DNA of 64,000 nt from NCBI RefSeq assembly GCF_003966655.1, contig NZ_AP018795.1, forward strand, positions 496,001-560,000, read 5' to 3'. Shown here in pieces: positions 24,942 to 51,208 of the stretch. How positions within the stretch are numbered: position 1 is the first letter of the stretch; each line of letters begins with the position of its first letter. This DNA comes from Acidithiobacillus ferridurans (GTDB lineage Bacteria; Pseudomonadota; Gammaproteobacteria; Acidithiobacillales; Acidithiobacillaceae). A program made the translations under genes and the position numbers. A model generated the notes under the pieces. The model did no database searches and was not told where the DNA came from. It was given only the letters and a program-made list of their open reading frames with translations.

Positions 24942-24984
24942 TATTTATTACTCCCGGTCGGGCTCGCAGCCCGGCTGTGATAAA

Positions 24985-25668: not shown

Positions 25669-25728
25669 GTGCCACTCGCTTGCATGAAAGAAAATTGACC
25701 GGGGATTTTACACGAAACGCCCGGCAGG

Positions 25729-27327: not shown

Positions 27328-27330
27328 CTA

Positions 27331-27840: not shown

Positions 27841-27981
27841 GAATCGGGGACTCCTTTTCGTAAGGGACCGAAAAAACACGCACCACGCAGGACCACCGTC
27901 CATGAGCATTCCAGAATGGCCGTAAACGATTCTCCGTTCTTTTGCTATCCCCGCGCAAGCCGGACGTTTGGCATCATGGCG

Positions 27982-28010
27982 TTGGTCTCGGCCGTTCCTC
28001 ATGATAGACT
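27982..28010 (+). promoter_or_regulatory. possible promoter of the mreB cluster
   Basis: TTGGTC (27982-27987) and TAGACT (28005-28010) are 17 bp apart, and TGA directly before the second box gives an extended -10. Matches to consensus are 3/6 and 4/6, so it is only a candidate. It lies about 90 bp before the mreB start in the 258-bp moaC-mreB divergent region. Confidence 0.35.
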
Positions 28011-28044
28011 GCCCGATGCACATGGCTTGTTGCGGATGCAGTAA

Positions 28045-29141
<1,097 letters not shown>

Positions 29142-29164
29142 GCCTTCGGCTGCCACGAACTACT

Positions 29165-33373: not shown

Positions 33374-33515
33374 TAGGATTTCTCCGTCCAATGGCATGGG
33401 GTACCAAGTATTGCCCGCCGTTCCCAAGCATGATTTTCTCCGCAGGCGTCGCTATAATCCCGGACTTGCCCAATCCCCCTGAACTCCAACCAGCGTTTAC
33501 CACTGAGGTCTCTTC

Positions 33516-34682: not shown

Positions 34683-34975
34683 GCGGGCCGCCGAAGCTGC
34701 GGCCACCATGCTGATGGCTTCCTGCAGGCTGTACGCAGCTCCGGTCGGGGCTTCACCTCCGGCGGAGGAAGACTTACCATGGCCAACAGGCCCCGCAAAG
34801 GCCTGTCACCATTTTAATGGCATTTGTAGGCAGTCCCGGCTGGTCTTCCGGCCCGCGCTTCGGCAGTGCGGTCCCAGAAACAACGGCCCAAGTTTGGGGG
34901 AGCCTGTCATGCTCACGGCAAGCCGGCATGGATTGAGTCCTGTCCGACGATGACACGAGGGGGTTACGAGACGCT
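34683..34975. other. unassigned region between dacA and ybeD
   Basis: About 293 bp without a supported gene. In many proteobacteria an aminotransferase gene sits here, but no remnant of one is readable. A GGCCGC/GCGGCC hairpin directly follows the dacA stop without a T-tract. An 81-codon open frame at 34708-34953 has no ribosome site and an unconvincing composition. Several short GC-rich inverted repeats are present; no known RNA family was recognised. Confidence 0.4.
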
Positions 34976-35242
34976 ATGGAAACCGACACCAATCCGGCAA
35001 AAGACTTTCCGCACCTGCATCATGTCAAAGCCATCGGTCAGCACGACGATCTGCTCGCCGCGGTGCGTGCAGCGATTGCGCCTCATGCACCGGATTTGCC
35101 GGACACGGCGTTCTCCTGCCGGCCCAGCAGCCAGGGAAACTATCAGGCCGTCACGGTGTCCATCGAAGCCAGAAGCCGTGAACACCTGCTCGATATTTAT
35201 ACGTCCGTCAGAGCGATTGACGGCGTGATTCTCTGCTTATGA
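34976..35242 (+). CDS. ybeD: YbeD-like DUF493 protein
   Basis: An 88-residue protein of the DUF493 family with a small ferredoxin-like fold. Conserved parts are FPHLHHVKAIGQ, SSQGNYQAVTVSIEA and a final DGVILCL. Its position directly before lipB, overlapping it in ATGA, is the same as in many gammaproteobacteria. A regulatory or lipoate-linked function has been suggested for the family, but none is established. Confidence 0.88.
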   Translation: METDTNPAKDFPHLHHVKAIGQHDDLLAAVRAAIAPHAPDLPDTAFSCRPSSQGNYQAVTVSIEARSREHLLDIYTSVRAIDGVILCL

Positions 35243-35877
35243 ATGCGCCCATACTCGTTCGTTTCTGGCCGGGGCTGCTGCCTTACTTCACGGTACTGGA
35301 CGCCATGCGCGAATTCACCCGCCAGAGGGACGCCGACACTCCCGACCAAATGTGGATTCTCCAGCATCCTCCTGTCGTCACCCTCGGTCGCAACGCCGAC
35401 GCGGCTGATGTCCTGGACCCTGGTCCCATTCCGGTGATTCGCAGTGATCGGGGTGGCAAAGTCACCTATCATGGACCGGGACAATGGGTGGTCTATCTGC
35501 TTATCGACCTGCCGCGCATGGGTATCAACGTCCGTACTTTGACCACCGCCATGGAACAGTCCGTCATTCGTCTGCTCCAGCGGCGCGGCATCGAAGCCCA
35601 TGCGCGGCGCGATGCCCCGGGCGTATACGTGGGTAATGCCAAAATTGCTTCCCTGGGCCTGCGTATTCAGCGCGGTCGCAGTTACCACGGCCTCAGCCTC
35701 AACACGGAGATGGATCTGAGTCCGTTCCAGCGTATTCATCCCTGTGGCATGGCGAATCTCGCGGTCACCCAAGTGCACGATCTCTGTCCGGACTGGCCAA
35801 GTCACGATGTTGCCGAAGCCCTGATGGCAGAGCTGTCCGTCAGCCTGGACCGCCCCTTAAAAAAAGGAGGGGCATGA
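35239..35877 (+). CDS. lipB: octanoyl-[ACP]:protein octanoyltransferase LipB
   Basis: A 212-residue LipB that moves octanoate from acyl carrier protein to lipoyl domains. The signature [16 protein letters not shown] is intact, the catalytic cysteine lies in HPCGMANL (near 168) and the lysine in [10 protein letters not shown] (near 135). Translation is coupled to ybeD and lipA by ATGA overlaps. This is the classical lipoate route, distinct from the sHdr-linked one at 13-17 kb. Confidence 0.96.
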
Positions 35878-36833
35878 ACATGGACCCCCAACTCCAGGCA
35901 AAAAAAGCGGCTCGTGGTGCCGACAAAACCGCACGCAACCCCATACCCATCATTCCGGCACATGCAGAACGCCTCCCCAAGCCACAGTGGTTGCGGGTAC
36001 GATCGCCCTTATCCCCCGAGGTAGACCGACTCAAAAAGATCCTGCGTGACGCGGCTCTTCATACGGTCTGTGAAGAAGCCTCGTGCCCGAATCTGGGAGA
36101 GTGCTTCGGCGGTGGAACGGCAACCTTCATGATCCTGGGGGACATCTGCACCCGCCGCTGCCCCTTCTGTGATGTGGCGCATGGCCGCCCCGAAGCACCC
36201 GATCCCCTGGAGGCCGTCCATCTTGCCCGGACCGTGGCTAGCATGAAACTACGTTTTGTCGTCATCACCTCCGTCGATCGTGATGATCTGCGTGACGGAG
36301 GTGCCCGTCATTTTGCAGAGGTCATTTCGGCACTGCGCGAACATTGTCCGGAACTGCACGTGGAAATTCTCGTACCGGATTTTCGCGGTCGGGTGGACAA
36401 TGCCCTGGCCGCATTTCGGGAGACTCCTCCCGATGTATTCAATCACAACCTGGAGACCGTGCCGCGCCTGTACTTACAGGCCAGGCCGGGTGCAGATTAC
36501 CATCACTCGCTGCAACTGCTCGCCGCCTTCAAGGCACAGCATCCGCAGGTCCCCACCAAGTCCGGGCTGATGCTTGGTCTGGGCGAGGAACTCGATGAAA
36601 TCCGCGGGGTGATGCGTGATCTGCGGCAGGCGGGATGTGAATTGCTGACCATCGGGCAGTATCTGGCACCATCTCGCCATCATCTGCCGGTGGCGCGTTT
36701 TGTACCACCAGAAGAATTCCAGCAGTTGCAGCGGGATGGCATGGCCATGGGATTCCGCCACGTCGCCAGCGGCCCGCTGGTGCGATCTTCCTACCATGCC
36801 GAGCGTAGTTTTCATGAAATAGGTGGCGACTGA
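35874..36833 (+). CDS. lipA: lipoyl synthase LipA
   Basis: A 319-residue radical SAM enzyme that inserts two sulfur atoms into octanoyl groups. The auxiliary cluster motif [12 protein letters not shown], the radical SAM motif CTRRCPFC and the C-terminal RSSYHAE serine ligand are all present. The start overlaps the lipB stop and follows GGAGG. It presumably serves dehydrogenase and glycine-cleavage lipoyl domains, while LbpA has its own pathway. Confidence 0.97.
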
Positions 36834-36847
36834 ACGGGGTCGGAGGG

Positions 36848-37648
36848 ATGCTGTTACGCTACACCACCTTGTTGACCCTGGTTTCAGCGCTTCTGCAACC
36901 GCCGGGTGTCCTGTTCGTTCTCGCCGCCCTGGGCTGGCTGGCAGAAATCGTGGGCTGGCGCTATCTGGGCCGGGTGCTCATACTCCTCGCGCTGGGCACC
37001 CTCTATTTTTTCTCGACTGCGTTAGGCGCACGGCTTCTCCTGCTGCCTCTGGAAGACCGCTACCCACCCCTGACCAAGCCCCTGCACGGAGCCGACACTC
37101 CCCAGGCGATTATCGTGCTAGGGGGCGGAGAGGTCATGCAATCGCCGGGGTCCAATCAGGAAACGGCGAATGCACGCACCCTTGTGCGCCTGCTGGCGGC
37201 AGCTCAACTCGCCCGACAAACCGGGCTTCCCATCATTCCCAGTGGCGGCGCCCCGCGTCTCGGCGCCCCAGCCGAGGCGCTCACCATGGAGTTCATCCTG
37301 CGCCAGGATCTGGGCGTACAAAGCCCCATCTGGCCGGAAACCCAGTCCTACAATACGGCAGCCAACGCAACAGACAGCGCGGCAATATTGGCCGAACACC
37401 ATGGCCACCCGGCCTACTTGGTAACCTCCGCGCTCCATATGCCGCGGGCCGTCGCATGGTTTCGCCGCGCTGGCGTGAAAGTGATCCCCGTGCCCACCGA
37501 CTACCGTCTGGACCGGGTGAACGGACTCCGCCTGGAGAGTTGGCTGCCGCGCGCGATTTATCTCGAAATCAGCAGCGAGGCGAGTCATGAATACCTCGGA
37601 CTTCTTTGGCTCTGGATTCAGGAGCAGGGAATCGGGGGTGGCCACTAG
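36848..37648 (+). CDS. YdcF/ElyC-like DUF218 membrane protein
   Basis: A 266-residue protein with two N-terminal membrane segments (about residues 8-28 and 38-60) and a DUF218 domain: AIIVLGGGE, IIPSGGAPR, SYNTAANA and LVTSALHMPRAVAWFRRAG. This matches the ElyC/YdcF group, some of which affect peptidoglycan or envelope-carrier metabolism. It starts 14 bp after lipA. The biochemical activity is unknown. Confidence 0.87.
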   Translation: MLLRYTTLLTLVSALLQPPGVLFVLAALGWLAEIVGWRYLGRVLILLALGTLYFFSTALGARLLLLPLEDRYPPLTKPLHGADTPQAIIVLGGGEVMQSPGSNQETANARTLVRLLAAAQLARQTGLPIIPSGGAPRLGAPAEALTMEFILRQDLGVQSPIWPETQSYNTAANATDSAAILAEHHGHPAYLVTSALHMPRAVAWFRRAGVKVIPVPTDYRLDRVNGLRLESWLPRAIYLEISSEASHEYLGLLWLWIQEQGIGGGH

Positions 37649-37677
37649 TTCCAAAGCCCCGAGGAGGGAACGAGATG

Positions 37678-38763
37678 CTACGGCTTCTGATCGGGGAAAG
37701 TCACCTGAACATGCAGATGTTCCTGATCTGCGGCGCTAGCCAGAGGTAAAGGCGGCGGTACCGCGGCGCCATTCGCCGATGGCCCGTAAGGAGCGTACGC
37801 GTAGGGTGTTGCGGGAAGTGCGGCAGACAGCGTTGCATAGCTCGGTGCGTCGACCCCGATGGGAAGTGCCACGGTGTTATGCTCAGCCACAATATGCCTG
37901 ACCATACCCCAGTCGATATGCTCATCGATCCGGTTCCGCACCATGAAAGACTTGATCGCCATCACGGCCCGCTGCAACTCCGGAATACCCTTTTTGTGGT
38001 AGGCATACATCGGTTTGTATGACTGCAGATAGACCTGCCCGTCGCGCACACCCACCAGGTTGGGCTGATCGATGATCCGTACTGGGGTGCCCACCGGAAC
38101 CATCGGGAAGAGTTGTGCGACATTCTCCGGGAACATCTGAAAACACCCCTGGCTGGCCCGCATGCCAACTCCCCAAGGGTGGTAGGTACCGTGGATGAAA
38201 ATACCGGAGAGTCCGGTCTCCATCGCCAGTTCACCCATGGGGTTTTCAGCGCCGGGTGGCCAATACCAGGGGATATCCATGTGAAATTTCTTCTCGAACC
38301 ACGCGTGGATATTTTTGGGTACATTCCACGCAGGCATTTTATATTTGGCGATAATCCGCGTATCCGTCAACGCCTCCTTCCAGCCCGGCAGAAAGACACC
38401 GACGGGATAGGTGTATACCACTCGGTCATTCACCGGAAAATAGTAGATCCGTCGCGCCGGAATATCCACGATGATCCCGGTCCAGGGCTTTGGCGGTAAA
38501 ATATACTCGGCAGGAATGACCACCTTGCTGGCCTCGCCAGGAAGCCAGGGATTGACACCAGGGTTGGCCGCCGTTACCTGATTGTAACCGAGGTCGTAGA
38601 AACGCCCGATGTCGAGAAGGGTATCGTCTCTGTGGGTGGTTACCGCCTCGAGCGCCCCGACAACATTACCCTGGGCGGGCAAGGCATAGACACTGGCATT
38701 GGCTACCGTCACACCACATCCCATGAAGGCTGCCAGAAACCAGGCACCTAACTGTTTTTGCAT
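37678..38763 (-). CDS. L,D-transpeptidase-like (YkuD) periplasmic protein
   Basis: A 361-residue exported protein: signal peptide to about residue 24 (VTVANASVYA), a LysM-like segment (LDIGRFYDLGYNQVTAANPG), then a YkuD domain (IIVDIPARRIYYFP). The active site reads FIHGTYHPWGVGMRASQGCFQMFPEN: the His and the S-x-G-C cysteine are present, but the usual arginine after the cysteine is Gln. Activity as a cross-linking or Braun-lipoprotein-type enzyme is therefore likely but not assured. The C terminus is Pro/Ala-rich. Confidence 0.87.
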   Translation of the reverse strand: MQKQLGAWFLAAFMGCGVTVANASVYALPAQGNVVGALEAVTTHRDDTLLDIGRFYDLGYNQVTAANPGVNPWLPGEASKVVIPAEYILPPKPWTGIIVDIPARRIYYFPVNDRVVYTYPVGVFLPGWKEALTDTRIIAKYKMPAWNVPKNIHAWFEKKFHMDIPWYWPPGAENPMGELAMETGLSGIFIHGTYHPWGVGMRASQGCFQMFPENVAQLFPMVPVGTPVRIIDQPNLVGVRDGQVYLQSYKPMYAYHKKGIPELQRAVMAIKSFMVRNRIDEHIDWGMVRHIVAEHNTVALPIGVDAPSYATLSAALPATPYAYAPYGPSANGAAVPPPLPLASAADQEHLHVQVTFPDQKP

Positions 38764-38876
38764 GACTTATTTTCCTGTTCGCGGCTCGCTGAAAAAGCAA
38801 GAACGCCATCCGCCGCGCACGCGCGTTGGCAGCGTCCTCTATTATCGCCATAATCATAAAGTAAAAGGAGGTCTGT

Positions 38877-39308
38877 ATGGAATCGCCACACCTGGTTTTT
38901 CTGAGAAACGCAGTGCGCGGCCAGACCGTTCCGGTCGTGCCATTACGCGATGCACTGCACCGTCTCGATCATATGCTGACCGGTTTGGCTGGCGATCTGC
39001 ATATCCCCTATGCAGGCCCTTATGTCGGTCTGGGACAAATGACCCGGCAACACCAGTTGTGTATTGCCGAGCATCAGTGGTCGGCGCAGGAGCGCGGCTG
39101 GGGCGTCGCCATCTGCATTAGCCACCCCGTTCACGGCTGGCGCGCAGAATGGCGGCTGGCCACAGTAAGCCGCGAACGTCTCCCGCTCATCGTACAGGCT
39201 TTGCCTGCGCTGTTCGCCGGCTACGCGGCGGCTGCGGACACCTCCTTGGCGGCGCAGCGCCCCAGCACGAAGCGCATCCATGAAATTGCCGGGATCTTCG
39301 CGCATTGA
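38877..39308 (+). CDS. hypothetical protein of 143 residues
   Basis: An unrecognised soluble protein with a strong AAAGGAGG ribosome site. It is rich in His, Arg and Trp (GWGVAICISHPVHGWRAEWRLA). No export signal or metal motif is clear. It lies divergent from the transpeptidase-like gene and 82 bp before the TPR membrane protein, so it could lead that cluster's operon, but nothing in the sequence ties it to it. Confidence 0.7.
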   Translation: MESPHLVFLRNAVRGQTVPVVPLRDALHRLDHMLTGLAGDLHIPYAGPYVGLGQMTRQHQLCIAEHQWSAQERGWGVAICISHPVHGWRAEWRLATVSRERLPLIVQALPALFAGYAAAADTSLAAQRPSTKRIHEIAGIFAH

Positions 39309-39390
39309 CAGTGCCGTTAAAACGCCTAACTACCAGTCAGAATAGCGGCAAAGAAGCAACACTACGTTTACCCTGAAGCGAGATTCCTGC

Positions 39391-40863
39391 ATGGAATTGC
39401 CCACCGGCAGCCTGATTATTATAGCCTTTCTTGTATCCCTGGTGGTGCTGACCGGGGTATGGAAGGCGTCGCGCGGACGGAAACCTCTCAGAGTTCCAGG
39501 TTTGCAGCGCGAGGGCAGCGGAAGTCCGGCGCCGACCGCATCCCCCGTCAAAAGCAACCTGGCCAGCACCGTAACAGCGGCATCCCCCGTGCAGGTCGAT
39601 GAAATCAGCATTCTGGACGAGGTGGATATTTATCTTTCCTATGGCCACCTGGAACAGGCTGCCACATCCCTCAGCTGGTACGTGGATCACAACCCAGACA
39701 ATGCCCAGCAGATGCGCAGGCTCCTCGCGATCTATCGTGAAATACCGGATATCGATCATTTTGTTGAACGGTTGGAACAACTCACCGAGTCACACACCAT
39801 TCCCGATGCGGAAGCCAGGGATCTCGTTTTGCAAGGGCTGAAACTGGATCCACAGAACCTACAACTACGGGTAACTGCAGAGAATTTGGGGATGAGCGGC
39901 GCGCAAATTGCGGCTGTCCTCGCGCACGCCACCCTTGCGCCACCACCGACGGAGTCTTCCGCGCTCGCCGGTGCGCAGAGGGAGTTGCAGCAATCCATCG
40001 TCAACCCGGAATCACTAGATCTGTCCGGATTTATGCCTAGACCAGAGATGCTATCGTCCGGGGTATCCCAAAACGGTCCTACCGGGGAGGGCCTCATACT
40101 GCTCACCGGGCCCGATGATATTCTGCCGCTGGACGAGGAGGAATATGGGGTAGTAGCTAGCCTGGTTTCGCCGCTCCTTGCCGCACACCATCTGCTGGCG
40201 TGTCACCAATATCCTGAGGCCGAGCGACTGTTACGTCGCCAACTCATTCTCGATCCCCGCAAGCTCATTCTCCATGTCACCCTGCTGGAACTGCTGTACG
40301 ACCAGCAGCGCTGTGCCGCCTATGCCGAATCCCTCCTGCAGCTCTATATCGCCCTGTGGGGCGCTGGTAGCGATCTGCGAACGCGATTGCTGCAACAAGG
40401 CCTGCGCCTGGGTGAACACAACCTCTGGGTAGCCCTTGCCGGAAGTGACGGAAAGGAGCAGGTTCTCGCAGGGCTGGCCGAGAAATACGGGCTGTATCTG
40501 CCGATCACCGCCATACCACTGAGCAGCCCCCCACTGGTGACGGAAGAAATTCACCGTGATCAGCTGGTTACCGAAAAGGACAGTGAAGATAGCATTATCG
40601 AGGAGTTCAACATGCTTCTGGACTACGGGCAGGTGAACGAGGCGGTGGACCTTCTGGAGAAGGCCATAATGGCGCAACCTCGGCATGAGGTTTACTACGG
40701 ACCGCTTCTCGAAATGTACGAACGGATGGATGCCCGCGAGCGATTTTCCCGTTTCGTCAAATCCATTCTCACGACGGACATGCAGCCCAGTGAAGATATC
40801 ATGCGCCAGATGTTCAGCCTGACTGAACGCCTCCAGCGTTACCCGCAACGACAGATCATTTAG
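39391..40863 (+). CDS. membrane-anchored TPR/FimV-like protein
   Basis: A 490-residue protein with one N-terminal membrane segment (LIIIAFLVSLVVLTGVW, residues 8-24), a Ser/Pro linker to about residue 65, then helical repeats such as EVDIYLSYGHLEQAATSL and MLLDYGQVNEAVDLLEKAI. The layout (anchor, linker, TPR-like repeats beginning with an acidic segment) resembles the cytoplasmic part of FimV-type polarity proteins. It is the first gene of a run with a receiver-like protein, a small GTPase and Roadblock-like proteins, so it may be the membrane platform of that system (inference). Confidence 0.75.
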   Translation: MELPTGSLIIIAFLVSLVVLTGVWKASRGRKPLRVPGLQREGSGSPAPTASPVKSNLASTVTAASPVQVDEISILDEVDIYLSYGHLEQAATSLSWYVDHNPDNAQQMRRLLAIYREIPDIDHFVERLEQLTESHTIPDAEARDLVLQGLKLDPQNLQLRVTAENLGMSGAQIAAVLAHATLAPPPTESSALAGAQRELQQSIVNPESLDLSGFMPRPEMLSSGVSQNGPTGEGLILLTGPDDILPLDEEEYGVVASLVSPLLAAHHLLACHQYPEAERLLRRQLILDPRKLILHVTLLELLYDQQRCAAYAESLLQLYIALWGAGSDLRTRLLQQGLRLGEHNLWVALAGSDGKEQVLAGLAEKYGLYLPITAIPLSSPPLVTEEIHRDQLVTEKDSEDSIIEEFNMLLDYGQVNEAVDLLEKAIMAQPRHEVYYGPLLEMYERMDARERFSRFVKSILTTDMQPSEDIMRQMFSLTERLQRYPQRQII

Positions 40864-40872
40864 GATTTGATC

Positions 40873-42042
40873 ATGACGACAAACCCCTCCAACAGCGGTA
40901 GTATCCTCGTCCGCAGCATCGGGATGGATGCACGCAAAGAAGCCGTCTTCCGCATGGCTTTCAAGATGTTTACCCGGCGGCATTATCAGTTGCTGGACGC
41001 CGGTGACGCGCAAACACCCGCAGTGATCATTATCGATGTGGATGGTATGGACGGTATGGCCATCGCGCGTCGGTTGCATGGAGAACAACCGGAACAACGT
41101 ATCCTGCTGACCAGCGTTTCCGCACACCCTGACAGTATTTTCCCGGTACTACGGAAACCCATACGGATGGAAACCCTGTTCCCCGCACTGGAGCTTCTGC
41201 TGATCGGTGGCCCCGCTCCGGCAAAGCCGGCAGAAAGGAACAGCGCGACAGTCATGCCCATCCGGCCCGACGTCGCGATCTCTTCGCCATTCGCGTCCGT
41301 CGCGGCACCACCTGCGGCCAAGCCAGCGTCGGCACCTGCTCCCAAACCGGCCGCAGCGCCAGCCGTCGCACCTCGCCCGACACCCCTGCTACGCGCTGAA
41401 GACGTACGTCATTTCAACCCTCAGGCTGGGCTGCTGGGACTTTTGCAGATCGTCCGCCGCGACCAGTCGCCAGCCATCATCGTGGATGATCGGCAGCAGG
41501 TTATTCTGCGCTTGGACCCGGTGACAGATCAGGCTATTCTGCTGACGGACGACGCAACCCTCAAGTCCCTGGCCCAGGAGGAGCACCCACGGCTGCAAAT
41601 ACGCGCCCCCGCTGACACGGATATCCCTGCCCATGCGTCTGTACGGCATCTCACCCTTCCATCCCTGCTCTGGCAAGTGGGTGCGTGGGCTGCTGACGGG
41701 CGCCTCATTCAGCAACTGCAGATCAACGCCCCAGTCCAACTGAAGCAGTGGCCCAACCTCACGCGCCTGACCATGTTGCCTGACGCCTTGCGCCTGGCGG
41801 CGTTTCTGGCCCGTTCTCCGGCGTCTCCGGCATTGACGGTGAAGATGTTGCGCGTCGTGCCCGCCGACCTCTTCAACTTTCTGGCGGCCGCGGATAGCCT
41901 GGGGTTGTTGCGCTATAACACGGCGGAAAACCCTGACAACCGCATCCGCCCTGCATCCGCGAATGCGCCGGAGGCTGCTGAAATACCTGCAGCAAAACGG
42001 AGCTTTCTGGGCCGTCTCCTTGCCCGCATTGCAGGGCTGTAA
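40873..42042 (+). CDS. receiver-like protein with Pro/Ala linker and unknown C-terminal domain
   Basis: A 389-residue protein. Residues about 8-110 have a degenerate response-regulator pattern: VIIIDVDGMDGMAIARRL, ILLTSVSAHPDS and LRKPIRMETLF (a KP dyad). The Ala/Pro linker spans about 115-170. The C-terminal half (VDDRQQVILRLDPVTDQAILL onward) ends in a helical part and is not recognised. ATG 40873 is chosen over TTG 40867 for its AGGA spacing. It follows the TPR gene by 9 bp and leads to the GTPase gene. Confidence 0.72.
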   Translation: MTTNPSNSGSILVRSIGMDARKEAVFRMAFKMFTRRHYQLLDAGDAQTPAVIIIDVDGMDGMAIARRLHGEQPEQRILLTSVSAHPDSIFPVLRKPIRMETLFPALELLLIGGPAPAKPAERNSATVMPIRPDVAISSPFASVAAPPAAKPASAPAPKPAAAPAVAPRPTPLLRAEDVRHFNPQAGLLGLLQIVRRDQSPAIIVDDRQQVILRLDPVTDQAILLTDDATLKSLAQEEHPRLQIRAPADTDIPAHASVRHLTLPSLLWQVGAWAADGRLIQQLQINAPVQLKQWPNLTRLTMLPDALRLAAFLARSPASPALTVKMLRVVPADLFNFLAAADSLGLLRYNTAENPDNRIRPASANAPEAAEIPAAKRSFLGRLLARIAGL

Positions 42043-42098
42043 GACGCGACCGGGATTTTTCTCCGGTAAAGATTAAAAGATCCTATGTAAGGAGCCGT

Positions 42099-42662
42099 AT
42101 GGTGAGAGAAGACAATAAAATTATTTTTACCGGTCCTGTTGGCGTAGGCAAAACAACGGCCATTGCGGCATTGTCGGATATTCCGATCATCTCCACCGAT
42201 GCCCAGGCCTCGGATATGACGCTGAATCGCAAGGGTCATACCACCGTCGCGATGGATTACGGTGTGTTGAAGCTGGATGAGGGTACCAAAATTCACCTGT
42301 ATGGCACTCCGGGTCAGGAACGTTTTGACTTCATGTGGGATATCCTCACCACCGGCGGCCTGGGCCTCATTCTGATGCTCGACAACACCCGCCCCAACCC
42401 CAAAAAAGACCTGCATTTTTTTCTTCATGCCTTCAAGGACTTCATTGTCGATGTCCCGGTCGTCATCGGGGTTTCGAAGACGGATATCCAGACGCAGCCC
42501 CAGATAGCCGACTACGTCGACATGCTCCCGGAGGCGACGGCGGACCTGCGGATGCTCAATCCCATTCCTCCAATTTTTGAAGTGGATGGCCGCAACAAGG
42601 ACGACGTAAAGAATTTGGTCATGGCACTGCTGTACTCCATTGATCCGGGCATCGGAGGTTAG
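42099..42662 (+). CDS. small Ras-like GTPase of the MglA/Gtr1-like bacterial group
   Basis: A 187-residue GTPase. The P-loop is GPVGVGKTT (residues 12-20), the switch II strand is HLYGTPGQERFDFMW (near 65-79, with Pro in the usual DTAGQ position) and the base-recognition motif is GVSKTD (NKxD-like, near 127). AAGGAG precedes the ATG. This group is usually found next to Roadblock/LC7 proteins, as here. In Myxococcus, MglA sets cell polarity and motility; a polarity or surface role here is inference. Confidence 0.87.
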   Translation: MVREDNKIIFTGPVGVGKTTAIAALSDIPIISTDAQASDMTLNRKGHTTVAMDYGVLKLDEGTKIHLYGTPGQERFDFMWDILTTGGLGLILMLDNTRPNPKKDLHFFLHAFKDFIVDVPVVIGVSKTDIQTQPQIADYVDMLPEATADLRMLNPIPPIFEVDGRNKDDVKNLVMALLYSIDPGIGG

Positions 42663-42664
42663 TG

Positions 42665-43303
42665 ATGAGTATCGAACTGGTCGCCACGAATGCGGACATT
42701 TACGGTGAGGTGACGCCCGCCGGGGCTTTTTATGCCACCTCCAGTCCGCATCAGGACGAAAACCGGACCACCCTCCTCCACGTTTTACGGCAAGGACACC
42801 GGGCTCCCTTCAGCGCCAGCACCGCACAGCACTGGACGCAGGCGGCGAGCGAAGAGGAAGCCCTGCGCAGCATCTTCCGCCTGCAGCGACTGGGCATGTT
42901 GCGGGGCACGGCACGTCCGCGCCAACGGGAGGATCAGCGGCTGGAAGACGCCTTACCGCCGCTCCTCGCGCAACTTTCGGATATACAGAAAACCCTCCTC
43001 GCCGATGAAAACGGCTTTTATCTCGCGGCATCGGGCTACACCCATGAAGCCGCAGAAGAACTCGCCGGGCTTTCGGCCGATCTGCTGTCCCTGCAGTCCA
43101 GACACGACCGTCTGCTGAAAAACAACCTCCGCGTCAACACCGAAACCTGGGGTTTGATCGATCCGGCGGGGCGCTCCGAACTGGGATTCTGGCCGTTATT
43201 TATCGGTCAGCAACATTTCATGCTCGTCATCAGCGGTACCCCTCGCCTGCAGGATCAATCCTTCGTTACACTGGTGCAGGACCTGGATACACGTTACCGC
43301 TAA
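42665..43303 (+). CDS. Roadblock/LC7-like protein (degenerate), GTPase partner
   Basis: A 212-residue protein starting two bases after the GTPase stop, with GGAGG upstream. The C-terminal half (LADENGFYLAASGYTHEAAEELAG, then LELGF-like strands and HFMLVISGTP) looks like a divergent Roadblock/LC7 fold, the type that binds Ras-like GTPases. The N-terminal part, with an ALRSIFRLQRLGMLRG helix pair, may be a winged helix. The fold assignment is by eye only. Confidence 0.65.
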   Translation: MSIELVATNADIYGEVTPAGAFYATSSPHQDENRTTLLHVLRQGHRAPFSASTAQHWTQAASEEEALRSIFRLQRLGMLRGTARPRQREDQRLEDALPPLLAQLSDIQKTLLADENGFYLAASGYTHEAAEELAGLSADLLSLQSRHDRLLKNNLRVNTETWGLIDPAGRSELGFWPLFIGQQHFMLVISGTPRLQDQSFVTLVQDLDTRYR

Positions 43304-43350
43304 CACAACCTCTTTTTCACAGACCCCGATTTTAATTCAGGAGAATAAAA

Positions 43351-43713
43351 ATGCGTGAAGAAATGCTCAAATCCATCCTCAGTGACCTGAACGGGTCTTC
43401 TGCGGACATCGAGGCCTCGGCCGTGATTTCCACCGACGGCCTCACCATCGCCTCACTGCTTTCTTCGACCATGGACGAAGACCGGGTAGGGGCCATGGCG
43501 GCGGCGATGCTTTCCCTGGGCGACCGCACCGCCGTAGAGCTGGCGCGGGGTGAACTGGAGCAGGTCATGATCAAAGGCGATAATGGCTACGTTCTGCTCA
43601 TTCATGCCGGCCCGGATGCGGTCCTCACGGTCATAGCCCGAAAAGAGGCGAAGCTTGGGTTGGTCTTTCTCGACGCCAAGCGGGGAGCTGCGGGGATCGC
43701 CGAACTGCTTTGA
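43351..43713 (+). CDS. Roadblock/LC7 domain protein (MglB-like)
   Basis: A 120-residue Roadblock/LC7 protein. The pattern SADIEASAVISTDGLTIAS, GAMAAAMLSLGDRTAVEL and GYVLLIHAGPDAVLTVIA is typical. Members are GTPase-activating or scaffold partners of MglA-like GTPases and form dimers. GGAG precedes the start. It is the last gene of the cluster and ends 89 bp before glyQ. Confidence 0.87.
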   Translation: MREEMLKSILSDLNGSSADIEASAVISTDGLTIASLLSSTMDEDRVGAMAAAMLSLGDRTAVELARGELEQVMIKGDNGYVLLIHAGPDAVLTVIARKEAKLGLVFLDAKRGAAGIAELL

Positions 43714-43802
43714 AGCCGTCGGGGTTACGCAGACTTGCGGACACCCTTCACAGGGCTGGCCGCGTTGGGCCATAATGCGCAAAATATCTGCCCGAGACCC
43801 CT

Positions 43803-44687
43803 ATGACTTTTCAGGAAATCATCCAGCGGCTGCAAGGCTTCTGGGCCGATCAAGGCTGTGTTCTGCTCCAGCCCATGGATATGCCGGTAGGTGCCGGAAC
43901 CTTCCACCCCGCCACCTTTTTGCGGGCCATCGGCCCAGAACCATGGCGGGCTGCTTACGTACAGCCCTCCAGGCGCCCCACGGACGGCCGTTATGGGGAC
44001 AATCCCAATCGTCTCCAGCACTACTACCAGTTTCAGGCGGTGCTCAAACCGAACCCGGTAAACCTGCAGGAACTCTACCTCGAATCGCTGGCGGCCCTCG
44101 GTATCGATTCCGGGGTCCAGGATATCCGGTTCGTCGAAGACGACTGGGAGTCACCAACCCTGGGGGCCTGGGGGCTGGGCTGGGAGGTCTGGCTGAATGG
44201 CATGGAAGTCACCCAGTTCACCTATTTCCAGCAGGTGGGCGGTCTGGATTGCCATCCCGTGATGGGCGAGGTCACCTATGGTCTGGAACGACTGGCCATG
44301 TACCTGCAGGGCGTCGAAAGCGTCTATGACCTTGTGTGGACCCCGAACGTACTCTACGGGGACGTATTCCATCAGAACGAAGTGGAGCAATCGCGCTATA
44401 ATTTTGAACTGGCGCCCGTAGAAGACCTCTTCCAGCGCTTCGACCAGGCGGAAAAAGACTGTCACGCCTTGCTGGCAGCCGAACTCCCTCTACCCGCCTA
44501 CGAACGGGTGCTGGACTGCTCCCATACCTTTAACCTGCTGGATGCACGCCATGCCATCGGCGTCAACGAGCGCGCTCGATTCATCGGCCGCGTCCGGACG
44601 CTGGCGCGAGGTGTGGCCGAGCACTATGCCGAGGCCCGTGCCGCCCTCGGTCACCCCCTGCTGAGGAGCCGAGATGTCAGCGCCTGA
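43803..44687 (+). CDS. glyQ: glycyl-tRNA synthetase alpha subunit
   Basis: A 294-residue catalytic alpha subunit of the bacterial alpha2beta2 glycyl-tRNA synthetase. It begins [18 protein letters not shown] and has [20 protein letters not shown] and [18 protein letters not shown]. The length is typical. It overlaps glyS by 14 bp. Confidence 0.97.
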
Positions 44688-46758
44688 AGATCTCCTGCTG
44701 GAACTGGGTTGTGAAGAGTTGCCGGCGCGGGAACAAATGCCCCTGCAGGACGCCGCGACCAGGATCATAGGCCAACTGCTCGATGCGGCCGGATTGCAGT
44801 TTGGGGGCATTCACGGCTATGTCACACCGCGACGGCTCGCTCTCTGGATCAAAGACGTCTCCCGACAGAGCCCGCCGCAGGAGACCCTGCGCCGCGGTCC
44901 CCTCGTGGCGCGCGCCCGTGATGCGCAGGGCAGGCCCACGGCGGCGGCGGAGGGCTTTGCCCGCTCCTGTGGGGTCAGCCTGGACGACCTGCTCATCCTG
45001 GAGACCGAAAAAGGCCCCGTCCTGGCTTGGCGGGAGGTCGGCGCAGCGCAGGATAGCCATGCTCTGTTACCCGAGATCGCCAGCAAACTGGTCACCAGCC
45101 TGCCCCTGCGCAAACGCATGCACTGGGGGGATCGTTCTGACAGTTTCCTGCGTCCGGTACGCTGGCTTTTGCTGCGTCAGGGCAGCCAGGTGCTGGACTG
45201 GAATATGTTTGGTCTGGATGCCGGCGGCGAGAGCTTCGGGCATCGCGTCCACCATCCCCAGACGGTGCAGATCAACGCCCCTGCCGGTTACGCCGGATCC
45301 TTGCTGCAGGCAAAGGTGATGGTGGATTTCGCCGGACGCCGCGCGCACATTTCCGGTAAAATGGCCGCCCTGGCAGGCGAGATGGCCGTCACTCCGATCC
45401 TGCCGGAGGCATTGCTGGACGAGATCACCGGACTCAACGAATGGCCAGTCATTCTCGCTGGCAGCTTCGCCGCGGACTATCTGCGGGTGCCCGAAGAAGC
45501 GCTGATTACGGTCATGATGCAGCACCAGCGATATGTCCCCCTGCGCGGTCAGAATGGGCGCCTGGTGCCCCATTATCTGTTTGCGGCCAACCTCCACAGC
45601 CGGGATACGCAGGTCGTCATCGATGGAAATAACCGGGTACTGCGTGCCCGCCTCGCGGATGCTGCCTTCTTTTGGGATCAGGATCGCCAGATCTCCCTGC
45701 AGACACGACGGGCCGCACTTGACGGGGTGCTGTTTCAGGATGGCCTCGGCAGCATTTTCGATAAGACGATGCGTCTGCAAGAGCTTGCCGCAACCCTCTC
45801 ACCACAGTTCGCGGTGGATGCGGGTGACATGTACCGCGCCGCGGAACTCTGCAAAAGTGATCTGCTCAGCGGTTTGGTGGGCGAGTTTCCGGAATTGCAA
45901 GGCATCATGGGCGGCCACTACGCCCGGCATGACGGGGAAAACAACCACGTTGCCACAGCCATCGCCCAGCATTACCTGCCCAGTGGGCGCGACGATGAAA
46001 TCCCGGCGGATGCGCACGGCCAGTGCCTGGCTATCGCCGACAAGCTGGATACCCTCTGCGGTTTTTTTGCCATCGGCAAAGTACCTACCGGGGACCGCGA
46101 TCCCTTTGCCCTGCGCCGCGCGGCGCTGGGGGTGCTGCGAATCGTGCTGGATGCCGGAGTGCCCCTGAACCTGGATGAAGCGGTAACCCACACGCTGGCC
46201 GCTTACGGTGGCGCCTTCGCCAGGAACCGGACGGAGATACGGAGCGCGGTGCTCGACTTCTTTCAGGATCGGATGCGGGTCTATTTCCGGGAGGAGGGCT
46301 TCCGCGCCGACCAGATCGCCGCCGTGCTCAGCCGCCAGCCCCACGAGCCATTGGACGCACGCCAGCGTCTCGAAGCCCTCGCCCTTTTCCAGGCTGAGCA
46401 TGCGGCGGCAGATGCCCTCGCCGTACTGATCAAACGGATCAACAATCTGTTACGCAAAGAAGTGATCTCCGGCGACCGGCCCATAGATCCCCAATACTTT
46501 ATGGACCCGGTAGAGAACACACTCTGGGACTACTGGCAGGCCCTGGAGCAGCCCCTCCATGCGCAGCTTGCGGAACGTCGCTATGCCGCGGCCCTCGGGC
46601 TGCTCGCAGGCCTGCGTCCCGCTGTCGACCAATTTTTTGATGGGGTCATGGTCCTGGCCGAAGATCCGGTGCTGCGCCAGAATCGCCTGGCACTGCTGGC
46701 CCGGCTTCAGGAAGCGTTCCTGCGCATTGCCGACTTCTCGCAGTTGCAGGGGGCCTGA
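44674..46758 (+). CDS. glyS: glycyl-tRNA synthetase beta subunit
   Basis: A 694-residue beta subunit, the tRNA-binding partner of GlyQ. The start [13 protein letters not shown], the block [19 protein letters not shown] and the HD-like metal site [13 protein letters not shown] are typical. GAGGAG precedes the ATG, which lies inside glyQ. Its last base is the first base of the gmhB start codon. Confidence 0.97.
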
Positions 46759-47297
46759 TGGGGCAGATCGTCATTCTGGATCGTGACGGTGTGATTAACG
46801 AGGACAGTAACGCTTATATCAAATCGCCCGCAGAGTGGCGCCCCATCCCGGGCAGTCTGGAGGCCATCGCGCGACTGAACCGTGCCGGTTACCAGGTAGT
46901 GGTGGCCACCAACCAGTCTGGTGTGGGACGGGGGCTTTTTGATATCCGCACCCTGATCGCTATCCACCAGCGCATGCGTCAGGAACTGGCCGCCGCAGGC
47001 GGTCGGATCGATGCCATTTTTTTCTGCCCCCATGCTCCGGAGGCAGCATGCGCCTGCCGCAAACCGGCGCCGGGTCTGTTTCAGGAAATACAGGAGCGGC
47101 TGCAAATCTCGCTGGAACAGGTTCCCACCATTGGTGACAGTATGCGCGATCTGCTCCCGGCACAGGAGGCGGGCGCACGACCCATGCTGGTACTGACGGG
47201 GAAAGGTCAAGACGCGCGCCTCGAAGCGCGGGCCGCAGGCTTTCCCATCTTCGCTGACCTTACCGCGGCGGTACACGCCATTCTCGGCACACCATGA
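46758..47297 (+). CDS. gmhB: D-glycero-beta-D-manno-heptose-1,7-bisphosphate 7-phosphatase
   Basis: A 179-residue HAD phosphatase of LPS heptose synthesis. The catalytic Asp pair is in ILDRDGVINED (residues 6-10), VVATNQSGVGRG is motif II, and the zinc loop is CPHAPEAACACRKP, which marks GmhB. GDSMRDLLPA supplies the Mg site. It starts inside the glyS stop and overlaps plsC by ATGA. Confidence 0.93.
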   Translation: MGQIVILDRDGVINEDSNAYIKSPAEWRPIPGSLEAIARLNRAGYQVVVATNQSGVGRGLFDIRTLIAIHQRMRQELAAAGGRIDAIFFCPHAPEAACACRKPAPGLFQEIQERLQISLEQVPTIGDSMRDLLPAQEAGARPMLVLTGKGQDARLEARAAGFPIFADLTAAVHAILGTP

Positions 47298-48022
47298 TAC
47301 GCACCATCCGCAGCGCATTGTTCTATGGGGGCTTTGCGATCTGGACGCTGATCTGGGCTATTTTCAGTCTAGCCGTAGCACCATTGCCGCTGCCGGCGCG
47401 GGTCTGGGCCAGTCGTTTATGGGCGCGCGCCGGCGTCGGCTGGCTCCATTGGAGTTGCAGCCTGCGTTATCGGGTTTCCGGTCTCGCCAATATTCCCGCC
47501 ACACCTTGCGTCATCGTCGCCAATCATCAGTCGGCGCTGGAGACCCTGCTCTTTTGGTGCATCTTCCCGCAACTCTCCTTTGTACTGAAAAAGGAACTCT
47601 TCCGCATCCCGGTGATCGGCTGGGGCCTGCGTTTGGCCTGGCCCATCGGGATCGACCGCAACGGGGGCAGGGAAGCCCTGCTGCAGGTGATTGAACAGGG
47701 GAAACTCCGGCTGGCTGCGGGCTTTCATGTGGTCATTTTTCCGGAAGGCACCCGCCACCCCTGCGGCACAGTCGGCCCCTTCAGCAGCACCGCTGCCGGG
47801 CTGGCCATCCGGGCTCAGGTCCCCCTTCTGCCGATCGCTGTGAATAGCGGGTGTTTCTGGCCGCGTACAGACTGGCGAAAATGGCCGGGGATCGTCGAAG
47901 TGCATATCGGCCCCGCGCTACCCCCCGCAGGCAAGGCTGGGTCCCTCAACCAGCAGGCGCACGACTGGATTACGGCTGCAATTGCGGAGATGGGGACGAG
48001 GCCTGCCGCAAAAGCGCTTTGA
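47294..48022 (+). CDS. plsC: 1-acyl-sn-glycerol-3-phosphate acyltransferase
   Basis: A 242-residue membrane-associated acyltransferase that makes phosphatidate. An N-terminal hydrophobic segment (IWTLIWAIFSLAVAPL) precedes motif I ANHQSALET; the H-x4-E form (instead of H-x4-D) is seen in related proteobacterial proteins. Motif III is FPEGTRHPCG. The 3' end overlaps the converging ATP-grasp gene by 53 bp. Confidence 0.9.
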   Translation: MIRTIRSALFYGGFAIWTLIWAIFSLAVAPLPLPARVWASRLWARAGVGWLHWSCSLRYRVSGLANIPATPCVIVANHQSALETLLFWCIFPQLSFVLKKELFRIPVIGWGLRLAWPIGIDRNGGREALLQVIEQGKLRLAAGFHVVIFPEGTRHPCGTVGPFSSTAAGLAIRAQVPLLPIAVNSGCFWPRTDWRKWPGIVEVHIGPALPPAGKAGSLNQQAHDWITAAIAEMGTRPAAKAL

Positions 48023-48878
48023 CCAGCGTACCAGCGATATCCTGCCCCGTAACAGCTTCGATGCCTTCCAGACTGGGGACAGGGTTCACCTCCAGCACCA
48101 GAGGCCGCTGATCTTCAGCCAGCATAATATCTACTCCGGCAAAGCTCAGGCCCAGAGCAGCCGCCGACCGGCGGGCAATGACGGCAAAATCTTCGGGCAG
48201 ATCGGGCAATGCCGACGCCCGCCCCCCGCAATGCAAATTGCTGCGAAAATCCTCGGCAGATGCCTCCCTGCGCATGGCCGCAATGACCTTACCGAACAGT
48301 ACGATCACGCGGATATCCTGGCGCCCGCTGAGAAAGCGCTGCGCCATCGCCTCGTGCTGCAGATGGAGGACGGTATCCAGCATGCCCCGAGCAGCGGCAG
48401 GTGTATCTGCCAGACTGACACCCACCCCCTGCGAGCCGCTGAGTAATTTTTGCACCAGCGGCATTCCCAAGGAGGAGACCGCCAGATCGCGCTGTCCCGC
48501 CTGGGTGAAGTAGGCGGTCTGCGGTACGGCAACGCCCGCCGCCACCAGGGCCTGAAGGGAGGCGAATTTATCCCGGGAAAGCTCCAACGCCCCCGCACTA
48601 TTGAGGCAGCAACTCCCCTCCCCCGCAAAATAACGCAGCAGACGCGCTCCCAGGTTCGTGATTGGAGTACCCACCCGTGGAATCACCGCCGCACAGGGTG
48701 CCAGGGGAGAGGATCCATAATAAAGCGCGGCCTGCGTGTCGTGTAGCATCAGCAAACACTGTTCAGGCTGAAGCAGGACCGGATCGGCGCCCGCAGCGAC
48801 AACCGCATCCAGCAAGCGGCGGGTCGAATAGAGCTCCACATGGCGCGAAAGAATGGCTACGCGGGGCACCGCAACCAT
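47970..48878 (-). CDS. RimK-like ATP-grasp ligase
   Basis: A 302-residue ATP-grasp protein of the RimK/alpha-L-glutamate ligase group. It has LELSRDKFASLQALVAAGVAVPQT, the glycine-rich loop KLLSGSQGVGVSL, RVIVLFGKVIAAMRR, and the metal-binding end VLEVNPVPSLEGIE. Such enzymes add amino acids to a protein or small-molecule carboxylate; the substrate here is unknown. It follows the small 48881-49201 gene by 2 bp, so the two share a transcript. Confidence 0.87.
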   Translation of the reverse strand: MVAVPRVAILSRHVELYSTRRLLDAVVAAGADPVLLQPEQCLLMLHDTQAALYYGSSPLAPCAAVIPRVGTPITNLGARLLRYFAGEGSCCLNSAGALELSRDKFASLQALVAAGVAVPQTAYFTQAGQRDLAVSSLGMPLVQKLLSGSQGVGVSLADTPAAARGMLDTVLHLQHEAMAQRFLSGRQDIRVIVLFGKVIAAMRREASAEDFRSNLHCGGRASALPDLPEDFAVIARRSAAALGLSFAGVDIMLAEDQRPLVLEVNPVPSLEGIEAVTGQDIAGTLVKALLRQASSPSPQLQP

Positions 48879-48880
48879 GC

Positions 48881-49201
48881 CTAGGCTACATCCTCATGGA
48901 AACTGAGCAGGGGCAACTCGCCGTGCCCGATGGATCGCTCGATGAAACCTGCCCGCCCCGGCGACCGCTGCTCCAGCGCTGTCCTTGCCAGGGCGGGCGC
49001 AGCGCTGATCGCGGCAAAGAGTACCTCCAGTTCCCAGGGATCGACCCGCAGCGTGCCAAAGGGATTATCCCGCGTTGCCGGACGCCAGAAGAGATTCGGC
49101 AACCATCCTTTGTTGCGCACTGCGGGGGCCAGATAAAACGCGCGACAACGTGCGGCTACCTCCGCCGACGCGGGAATCGAAATCACATCCTGGTTTTCCA
49201 T
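48881..49201 (-). CDS. small protein paralogous to the 50912-51208 gene
   Basis: A 106-residue soluble protein of unknown function. ATG 49201 follows AAGGGG. Its second half aligns by eye with the protein at 50912-51208: both have Ala-Arg-Cys near the start, then a WELEV/CELEV block followed by an Ala-rich helix, then SPGRAGFIER / EPGRAAFIQR and a GxxPLL end. The two genes flank the solo hdrB gene in opposite directions. It is 2 bp before the ATP-grasp gene. Confidence 0.75.
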   Translation of the reverse strand: MENQDVISIPASAEVAARCRAFYLAPAVRNKGWLPNLFWRPATRDNPFGTLRVDPWELEVLFAAISAAPALARTALEQRSPGRAGFIERSIGHGELPLLSFHEDVA

Positions 49202-49294
49202 AATACCCCTTTCAAGTCGTTGCTGATGCGGGCCGCCACCCACGGCGACGATCATAAAGCCATTTACTTGGCAACGGAATCATTGTGGAGCATA

Positions 49295-49323
49295 ATAGTC
49301 AACTATTCGCATGGATGTACAAT
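49295..49323. promoter_or_regulatory. palindrome and -10-like element upstream of the solo hdrB gene
   Basis: ATAGT-CA-ACTAT (49295-49306) is an inverted repeat, directly followed by GCATGGATGTACAAT (49309-49323) ending in a TACAAT box. The first element repeats at 11279-11290 and the second, with one mismatch, at 8978-8992. Both lie in the 174-bp gap between the divergent small gene and hdrB. They are candidate operator and promoter parts; no good -35 box is seen for hdrB. Confidence 0.4.
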
Positions 49324-49375
49324 GTGTTCCACAGTGTATTCCGGTTAAGCGGCTTGATGCCCAAGGAGTCAATCT

Positions 49376-50728
49376 ATGAAAGACGACAACAACAGCACGC
49401 AACAGGGCGTGGCAGGTCACGGCGCCTTTTTTCAGGACACGAATCTTTCGGCAAATGAGGCGGAAACGGCTACGGCCTGGGTGCGCAGCCATGTGGATCG
49501 CCGCACCGTCGATCTGGGCGAGCGCATGGACGACATCCGCGACCACATGTGGGAACTGGAGAAGGAAGGTGAGATCATCGTCCACCGCATCAACCCCGAA
49601 CATCGTGCGGAAGCGGTGCAGACCCTTTACGGCTGGGATAAAAAGATCCCCACCAATAACCTCTGGCACCACAAGAGCTGCGGGCAGTGCGGCAACATCC
49701 CCGGCTATCCCACCAGCCTCATGTGGTTCATGAACAAGCTGGGCATCGACTACCTCGACGAGACCGACCAGACCTCCTGCACCGCCTGGAACTACCACGG
49801 CTCCGGCATCGGCAACGTGGAGTCCCTGGCCGCCGTTTTCCTGCGCAACTTCCATCAGGCCTACGTCTCCGGCAAGCAGCACGGCTTCGAGAATGGCCAT
49901 TTCTTTCCCCTGGTGCACTGCGGCACCTCCTTCGGCAACTACAAGGAGATCCGCAAATACCTCATCGAGTCCGCCGAACTGCGGGAGAAAGTCAAGAAGA
50001 TCCTCGGCAAGCTGGGACGTCTGGTGGACGGCAAGATCGTCATCCCCGAGGAGGTGGTCCACTATAGCGAATGGCTGCACGTCATGCGCCACCGTATCGC
50101 CAGCGAGTTGCAGACCATCGACATGAGCAACATCCGGGTCACCGTCCATGCCGCCTGCCACTATTACAAGATGGTGCAGGAAGACGCCGTCTACGACAAC
50201 ACCGTGCTCGGTGGTAATCGTACCGCCGTCGGCACCTCCGTCGCCCAGGCCCTGGGCGCCCAGGTCATCGACTACTCCACCTGGTACGACTGCTGCGGCT
50301 TCGGTTTTCGGCACATCATTTCCGAACGCGAGTTCACCCGCAGTTTCTCCATGAACCGCAAGATCAAGGTGGCGCGGGAGGAGGCCAAGGCCGACGTCAT
50401 GATCGGCATCGACACCGGCTGCATCACCACCCTGGATAAAAACCAGTGGATCGGCAAGGCCCACGACATGAATTACTCCATGCCCATCATCGCCGACGTG
50501 CAGCTCGCGGCCCTGGCCTGCGGCGCCGATCCCTTCAAGATCGTGCAGTTGCAGTGGCATGCTTCGCCCTGTGAAGACCTGGTGGAGAAGATGGGCATCA
50601 GTTGGGACAAGGCCAAAGCCGACTTCCAGGATTATCTCAAGCAGGTGGAACAGGGTAACGTGGAATACCTCTACAACCCCGAACTGGCCACCAATCAAAA
50701 CATCAATATGAAGATGGCGTCCGCCTGA
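49376..50728 (+). CDS. hdrB: solo HdrB1 paralogue
   Basis: A 450-residue near-copy of HdrB1 (22365-23708). All cysteine groups are kept (SCGQCG, TSCTAW, VHCGTS, HAACHYY, DCCGFG, TGCIT). I count roughly thirty differing residues, about half of them in one stretch around residues 72-97. AAGGAG precedes the start. No other hdr genes adjoin it; it has its own putative promoter and a terminator. It could substitute for HdrB1 in the sHdr complex under other conditions. Its function is inferred from the copy. Confidence 0.92.
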   Translation: MKDDNNSTQQGVAGHGAFFQDTNLSANEAETATAWVRSHVDRRTVDLGERMDDIRDHMWELEKEGEIIVHRINPEHRAEAVQTLYGWDKKIPTNNLWHHKSCGQCGNIPGYPTSLMWFMNKLGIDYLDETDQTSCTAWNYHGSGIGNVESLAAVFLRNFHQAYVSGKQHGFENGHFFPLVHCGTSFGNYKEIRKYLIESAELREKVKKILGKLGRLVDGKIVIPEEVVHYSEWLHVMRHRIASELQTIDMSNIRVTVHAACHYYKMVQEDAVYDNTVLGGNRTAVGTSVAQALGAQVIDYSTWYDCCGFGFRHIISEREFTRSFSMNRKIKVAREEAKADVMIGIDTGCITTLDKNQWIGKAHDMNYSMPIIADVQLAALACGADPFKIVQLQWHASPCEDLVEKMGISWDKAKADFQDYLKQVEQGNVEYLYNPELATNQNINMKMASA

Positions 50729-50750
50729 TTCAGTTTGATGCGCAAAATGA

Positions 50751-50774
50751 CCCCGCCTTTGCGCGGGGTTTTTT
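50751..50774 (+). terminator. rho-independent terminator after the solo hdrB gene
   Basis: A CCCCGC/GCGGGG stem with a six-base loop is followed directly by TTTTTT and a second T-run after one G. It begins 22 bp past the hdrB stop, so hdrB is a one-gene transcript. Confidence 0.9.
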
Positions 50775-50911
50775 GTTTTTGCACGGAATCTATCCGGGCA
50801 TGGAATACTTCAATCGACAAAAGCCTCCCCTCCGGACATGTTTTTCGGGTATGCTTAGGCACGCCCGCCACGACAGGCGATGGCTTTGCCCGTTTAAACA
50901 GGAGGATGACA

Positions 50912-51208
50912 GTGGACCCGAAGGCCCTCAATGCCCGTTGTGTAGAACTTTTTCAGAGCCCGGATGTGCGCCTGCGGATGTGGAATGCGCGGATGTTCTG
51001 GCAGGTTGGCGATCAGATGAATGTCGCGCCGACCGCACTCACCGATCCCAAGGTGGATACCTGCGAACTGGAAGTCATGCTCAGCGCCGCCGCACTGACC
51101 GATTCCCAGTGTGCCGCTGAACTGGACAAACGCGAGCCCGGCCGCGCCGCCTTCATTCAGCGCCAGGTCCGGGAAGGCATGCGACCGCTTCTGCGTCCTG
51201 CGCAATAG
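50912..51208 (+). CDS. small protein paralogous to the 48881-49201 gene
   Basis: A 98-residue soluble protein. GTG 50912 lies six bases after AGGAGG; ATG 50906 is too near that site. It shares the ARC start, CELEVMLSAAAL helix and EPGRAAFIQRQ block with the protein at 48881-49201. No known domain is recognised. It lies downstream of the solo hdrB gene, beyond its terminator. Confidence 0.75.
   Translation: MDPKALNARCVELFQSPDVRLRMWNARMFWQVGDQMNVAPTALTDPKVDTCELEVMLSAAALTDSQCAAELDKREPGRAAFIQRQVREGMRPLLRPAQ

Follow-up and report, generated by a model that had tools for sequence, protein, structure and literature searches.

Concerted evolution of an inverted hdrB1 gene pair in Acidithiobacillaceae, with a separately promoted second copy

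The solo hdrB1 gene, its neighbours and its control region

The window analysed here, a stretch of 64,000 nucleotides from Acidithiobacillus ferridurans, carries two hdrB1 genes. One belongs to the sHdr operon (22365..23708, minus strand), which is ordered hdrC1-hdrB1-hdrA-orf2-hdrC2-hdrB2 with rhd/dsrE2 upstream, and was located by genome search, alignment and flanks. The other, termed the solo gene (49376..50728, plus strand), starts with ATG, encodes 450 amino acids and was defined by its open reading frame, genome search, alignment, synteny and the literature. These are the only two hdrB1 copies of the genome, which is a single contig of 2,921,399 bases. The proteins are identical at 412 of 447 aligned residues (92%) with 10/10 cysteines at matching positions, and the genes are ~91% identical in DNA with longest identical runs of 134, 127 and 95 nt. 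This confirms both the near-copy with all cysteines kept and the long near-identical DNA runs described in an initial annotation of this sequence. Since the solo gene is not within the hdrC1-hdrB1-hdrA operon but sits between two genes called X and Y, its product was named HdrB1 because of the identity to the operon product and not because of gene context; the operon is the usual context for hdrB1, not a property of the protein. A CCG domain was detected at residues 255-354 (Pfam PF02754, E 9.9e-9), and the best Foldseek matches (8rwn, 7bkb and 5odc, E down to 8.6e-11) identify an HdrB fold. In an alignment to HdrB 8rvu, three of ten canonical-motif cysteine positions are replaced (T136, S185, D346), and the term "catalytic", which had been applied to this subunit, is therefore unproven for solo HdrB1.

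X (48881..49201, minus strand, start placed from orthologues) encodes a conserved protein of ~106 amino acids with unassigned family and is divergent from the solo gene. Y (50912..51208, plus strand, GTG start), recognised by homology to X, lies downstream and encodes a 98-amino-acid paralogue that is 35-40% identical to X. Searches of Pfam and NCBIfam gave no match for either protein; homologues occur in 15 of 369 genomes of the class and share the invariant motif PGR..FI.R...G..P.L. The idea that X and Y assist sHdr as accessory proteins was not supported, as X adjoins rimK without hdrB in the sister family f2; moreover, sHdr loci outside Acidithiobacillaceae had no X/Y homologue beside them in our search. 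The window also holds an sHdr accessory cluster (14055-18773, minus strand) that comprises two GCV_H-type (LbpA-like) proteins, DsrE, an LplA-like ligase, a geranylgeranyl-reductase-family protein and a LipS1-like lipoyl synthase scoring below the cut-off, as well as a FadL-type porin at 11390-12679.

Upstream of the solo gene we identified a family-conserved sigma-70 promoter, TTGGCA-N17-CATAAT (49268..49296, plus strand), whose sequence matches the RACE-mapped promoter of AFE_2586 given in an A. ferrooxidans study (PMC5506826). The 12-bp palindrome ATAGTCAACTAT (49295..49306, plus strand) overlaps the -10 box and is, by its conservation, an operator candidate. The gene is followed by an intrinsic terminator (50749..50780, plus strand) with the hairpin GACCCCGCCTTTGCGCGGGGTT at 50749-50770 and a T-rich tail. 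The 16-mer CATARTRGTCNACTAT is found at the solo promoter position in 24 of 29 family genomes with at most one mismatch, and similar matches elsewhere are no commoner than control matches. Promoter and palindrome were kept while the surrounding intergenic sequence diverged, and a hairpin with T-run also follows Y-flanked hdrB copies in other species. The proposal that the gene has its own promoter and terminator is thus supported, and both are conserved across relatives.

By promoter sequence and synteny the solo gene is orthologous to AFE_2586 of A. ferrooxidans ATCC 23270. An expression study describes its transcript as sulfur-induced, with array log2 values of -1.5 versus -2.0 for the operon hdrB and qPCR values of -0.8 versus -1.3 for hdrA and -1.6 for hdrC (PMC2754497). 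Sulfur thus induces AFE_2586 less strongly than the operon, and its contribution may be minor. RegA binds its sigma-70 promoter, for which the start was mapped by 5'-RACE (PMC5506826), and its protein was more abundant in pyrite biofilm cells (PMC6450195). Transcript, mapped promoter and protein together exclude, for the A. ferrooxidans orthologue, that the copy is never expressed.

A second exact ATAGTCAACTAT is located at 11279-11290, upstream of a conserved 137-aa gene preceding an LplA-like gene, where ~0.005 exact occurrences per window are expected. A ATAGTCAACTAT regulon was nevertheless rejected, since only one of 27 family orthologues of this locus has an exact site, namely that of the present genome. 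Control of the sHdr operon by the same palindrome was also rejected, as a window scan found no copy upstream of rhd. Besides, Acidithiobacillus sp. HP-2 carries extra scattered sHdr genes (L035, L036): one contig has an hdrB-hdrA pair with a solo-like promoter motif ~60-75 bp upstream, and another has hdrC1, hdrB2, hdrC2 and hdrB.

Age and gene conversion of the hdrB copies

Across 29 Acidithiobacillaceae genomes from four genera an hdrB match was obtained in every case (29/29); in the draft G005 the gene itself is unassembled and only a distant relative was matched. Two flank contexts recur, hdrC1-hdrB-hdrA in the sHdr operon and X-hdrB-Y adjoining rimK and glyS, with Y displaced by ~26 kb in G026. 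In two genomes of family f2, X adjoins rimK and no hdrB was seen beside X, and further hdrB copies lie elsewhere in other contexts. One f2 genome (G054, L201-L204) has a near-identical hdrB pair in a different context, with contig breaks inside the gene. From the locus shared by four genera and the old synonymous divergence in its 5' third, the solo gene is therefore old and appears to date at least to the ancestor of Acidithiobacillaceae. The initial annotation had taken the long identical DNA runs as a sign of recent duplication or gene conversion. These runs are real, but an orthologous solo gene stands at the same place in all four genera and its 5' third has long diverged; we therefore reject a recent duplication in the A. 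ferridurans lineage, which is next to impossible.

Alignment of 22365-23708 with 49376-50728 revealed divergence in blocks that is not evenly spread. Synonymous differences are clustered (index of dispersion 3.25, permutation p ~5e-5), with pS of 0.56-0.63 over codons 1 to ~128, 0.44 over codons ~321-378 and ~0.10 elsewhere. Accordingly, the solo gene can be divided by alignment and pS, with support from trees for the first two parts, into an unconverted block at ~codons 6-128 that contains the amino-acid patch (49391..49758, plus strand), a converted core at ~codons 129-320 whose copies pair within genomes (49759..50346, plus strand; pS 0.10), a second unconverted block (50347..50495, plus strand) and a converted 3' block with the 127-nt and 95-nt identical runs (50496..50712, plus strand). 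Amino-acid differences are concentrated at residues ~72-98; the cluster near residues 72-97 noted earlier thus holds for the protein, whereas in DNA the divergent region is wider and comprises both unconverted blocks.

Within genomes the copies are 97.7-99.9% identical in DNA in seven pairs with an intact operon and 99.4% identical in A. ferrianus, versus mostly 82-93% between hdrB orthologues of different species, although the close relatives G010 and G016 reach 97.8%. The homology between copies starts within ~14 nt of the start codon and stops close to the stop codon. Core dS within the genome is 0.11 in A. ferridurans and 0.06 in A. ferrooxidans, compared with 0.18-0.24 between the two species; core conversion therefore postdates their split. 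In trees of the core the copies pair by genome in both species (support 0.93 and 0.95). In trees of the patch, the operon copies of both species join the A. thiooxidans group (0.95), and their solo copies cluster with those of A. ferrianus and a g3 MAG (1.00). Paralogues are thus closer within than between species, and synonymous identity is distributed blockwise with sharp limits. On these alignments and trees, concerted evolution of the hdrB copies through gene conversion is shown and the suggestion of conversion in the initial annotation is strongly supported; by the same comparisons, the N-terminal ~128 codons and codons ~321-378 of A. ferridurans and A. ferrooxidans retain old divergence. 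Most short-read drafts break inside hdrB at shared points, as is typical of near-identical repeats, and the repeats account for the breaks of many draft assemblies of the family in this gene. Our literature search on gene conversion or inversion in Acidithiobacillus returned nothing relevant.

Inverted geometry and the divergent patch

The two A. ferridurans copies lie 25.7 kb apart in opposite orientation, and every genome in which both copies could be placed has an inverted pair 26-39 kb apart with the second copy beside rimK/X. As delimited by alignment and flanks, a crossover between the copies would flip the intervening 25.7-kb segment (23709..49375) and move rhd...hdrC1 away from hdrA. 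The predicted arrangement is P(rhd)->rhd..hdrC1-hdrB-terminator and P(solo)->hdrB-hdrA-orf2-hdrC2-hdrB2, so that the pair might act as an invertible switch that places the operon halves under different promoters. Besides the inverted geometry, recombinant junctions were assembled in A. ferrianus MG (both junctions) and in MAG DS4.bin78 (X-hdrB-hdrA), and six draft contigs correspond to the segment itself with ends in or just outside hdrB. However, the recombinant junctions were seen only in short-read assemblies of other species. DS4.bin78 is a short-read metagenome assembly, and the inserts used to sequence A. ferrianus were ~460 bp long (PMC7040056), too short to span its hdrB repeat, which is perfect over 1342 bp. 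These junctions therefore prove no inversion, and we dropped inversion as an established fact. Moreover, each of the seven assemblies that consist of one or a few contigs (G000, G006, G016, G017, G021, G022, G026), whose long-read or finished basis is deduced from contig number, has the operon intact, as do two resolvable drafts. We consider such a switch unlikely. The same holds for the wider idea of a RecA-driven flip module in the family that would reversibly split the sHdr operon, put hdrB-hdrA-orf2-hdrC2-hdrB2 under the palindromic solo promoter and generate cell-to-cell variation in sulfur oxidation; it, too, is improbable. In A. ferrianus MG (L044), X looks degenerate with its middle missing beside the X-hdrB-hdrA junction.

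The divergent patch covers residues ~72-98 (49589..49669, plus strand, for residues 71-97 with the solo-type allele RINPEHRAEAVQTLYGWDKKIPTNNLW) and was characterised by alignment, allele survey and a structure model. Two allele types exist. A. ferridurans, A. ferrooxidans and 'A. ferruginosus' carry the solo type in their solo gene, A. ferrianus carries it in both of its genes, and the g3 genomes G019 and G020 carry it in the copy flanked by X. It is also present in stray hdrB copies set among different genes, some of them close to transposase genes. As A. ferrianus has it in both copies, the solo type is not tied to one locus. All remaining copies carry the operon type, which resembles HdrB1 of outgroups. 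Each type is conserved, with pN 0.012 at pS 0.45 between the solo copies of G000 and G019 and pN 0 between the operon copies of G000 and G006. In an AlphaFold model of solo HdrB1 with modest confidence (mean pLDDT 69, ~78-91 across most of the patch part), the patch is predicted to lie in a small beta-subdomain that precedes the HdrB core. Alignment to solved HdrB structures begins only at residue ~102, which places the patch outside the conserved core. Two extra hdrB genes with a solo-type patch (L045, L046) were observed in the A. thiooxidans-like complete genome G016, within a 4.3-kb duplicated segment that is 99.7% identical and has an IS110-like ORF near one copy. On a Geobacter-labelled MAG contig (L131), hdrB has the same neighbour as in G016, along with a transposase-like ORF, which suggests a mobile hdrB cassette.

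The two HdrB1 products differ in A. ferrooxidans, A. ferridurans, 'A. ferruginosus' and one g3 genome. In the eight remaining genomes for which both genes are assembled in full, no more than about six residues separate them, most of these in the C-terminal tail. The exchangeable sHdr subunit that the initial annotation proposed as a regulatory feature is therefore possible in the former and not in the latter, which limits its plausibility to the ferrooxidans clade and a single further genus. In a stricter form, the solo product would sometimes replace HdrB1 in sHdr as a substrate- or redox-specific isoform, for instance during switching between iron and sulfur, and the patch would alter partner binding or sulfur delivery. 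This fits the distinct and strongly conserved patch alleles, which still differ while the rest was converted, the recurrence of the pattern in the ferrooxidans clade and G020, the RegA-bound promoter (PMC5506826) and the predicted position of the patch in an N-terminal beta-subdomain. Near-identical products in the eight other genomes, however, mean that it is not the general reason for retention. A. ferrianus has the solo type in each of its genes and the structure model is of modest confidence, which also speaks against it, so that we regard a specialised isoform as a tentative option. The patch types could also be kept apart by heterology blocking conversion instead of selection.

Role of the second HdrB1 and comparison with known systems

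We consider it reasonably likely that the solo gene is a second HdrB1 gene of old age with a promoter of its own, which evolves in concert with the operon copy, supplies sHdr and yields an isoform in the ferrooxidans clade and one g3 genome. Recombination between the inverted copies, probably of RecA type, repeatedly converts one by the other. The sigma-70 promoter with the palindrome over its -10 box would allow HdrB1 to be made independently of the operon on sulfur, probably through a regulator acting at the palindrome. Most likely, the solo gene would serve to provide sHdr with additional HdrB1, or with HdrB1 whose supply is tuned separately. In the ferrooxidans clade (A. ferrooxidans, A. 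ferridurans and 'A. ferruginosus'), which like A. ferridurans includes iron oxidisers, and in one g3 genome the N-terminal part has escaped conversion and carries the solo-type patch; there the gene thus encodes a second HdrB1 isoform, which may differ in function. Elsewhere extra dose or independent control fits better because the two proteins are nearly identical.

This near-identity in most species and the weaker expression compared with the operon could also be read as an evolutionary leftover, in which a redundant copy is retained by chance and conversion is a by-product of homology. However, every sampled member of the four genera has kept the copy, its promoter and palindrome are conserved amid diverged intergenic sequence, the terminators are conserved as well, both copies are under strong purifying selection, and the gene is expressed in A. 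ferrooxidans. These observations argue against a leftover and make chance retention very unlikely.

In biomining bacteria, sHdr is a central system of sulfur oxidation in the cytoplasm, although its function in Acidithiobacillus was described as still lacking direct biochemical proof (PMC6335251). That a second HdrB1 under separate control is kept family-wide by conversion implies that the supply or identity of HdrB1 matters. The two conserved patch alleles point to a part of HdrB1 that may determine which partner or substrate is used, and the single-site palindrome offers a handle on the regulator that the RegA study left to be identified (PMC5506826).

The solo gene and its sulfur expression were already known from A. 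ferrooxidans. AFE_2586 of ATCC 23270 is the same gene, with 98% protein identity to the G006 copy, the same promoter sequence and the same neighbours, and is described in the available parts of PMC2754497 and PMC5506826 just as a third HdrB that is sulfur-induced and RegA-bound. Our analysis adds the inverted pairing, the old age, the conversion with its protected blocks and the conserved promoter; in the literature searched we found no mention of concerted evolution, of inverted pairing across the family, of patch alleles or of a conserved palindrome. The sHdr HdrB1 proteins of Thioalkalivibrio, Sulfuriferula and Thiobacillus loci are ~80-84% identical to solo HdrB1 and share its N-terminal extension and cysteines. 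Unlike the solo gene, 59 of 67 such loci examined lie within the operon between hdrC1 and hdrA, and true solo copies were seen only in MAG DS3.bin58 and Sulfuriferula multivorans TTN, where the gene context is different. The HdrB subunit of methanogen HdrABC (PDB 5odc, 8rvu) shares the HdrB fold and CCG domains with solo HdrB1 from residue ~102. It is, however, without the ~100-residue N-terminal extension that holds the patch, while solo HdrB1 is without three canonical ligand cysteines of the methanogen protein.

The tufA/tufB genes likewise evolve in concert by gene conversion, with within-genome identity above orthologue identity and homology nearly confined to the coding sequence. In contrast to tufA/tufB, the hdrB pair encodes a metabolic subunit from one copy in an operon and one solo copy, and it has a protected divergent segment in some lineages.
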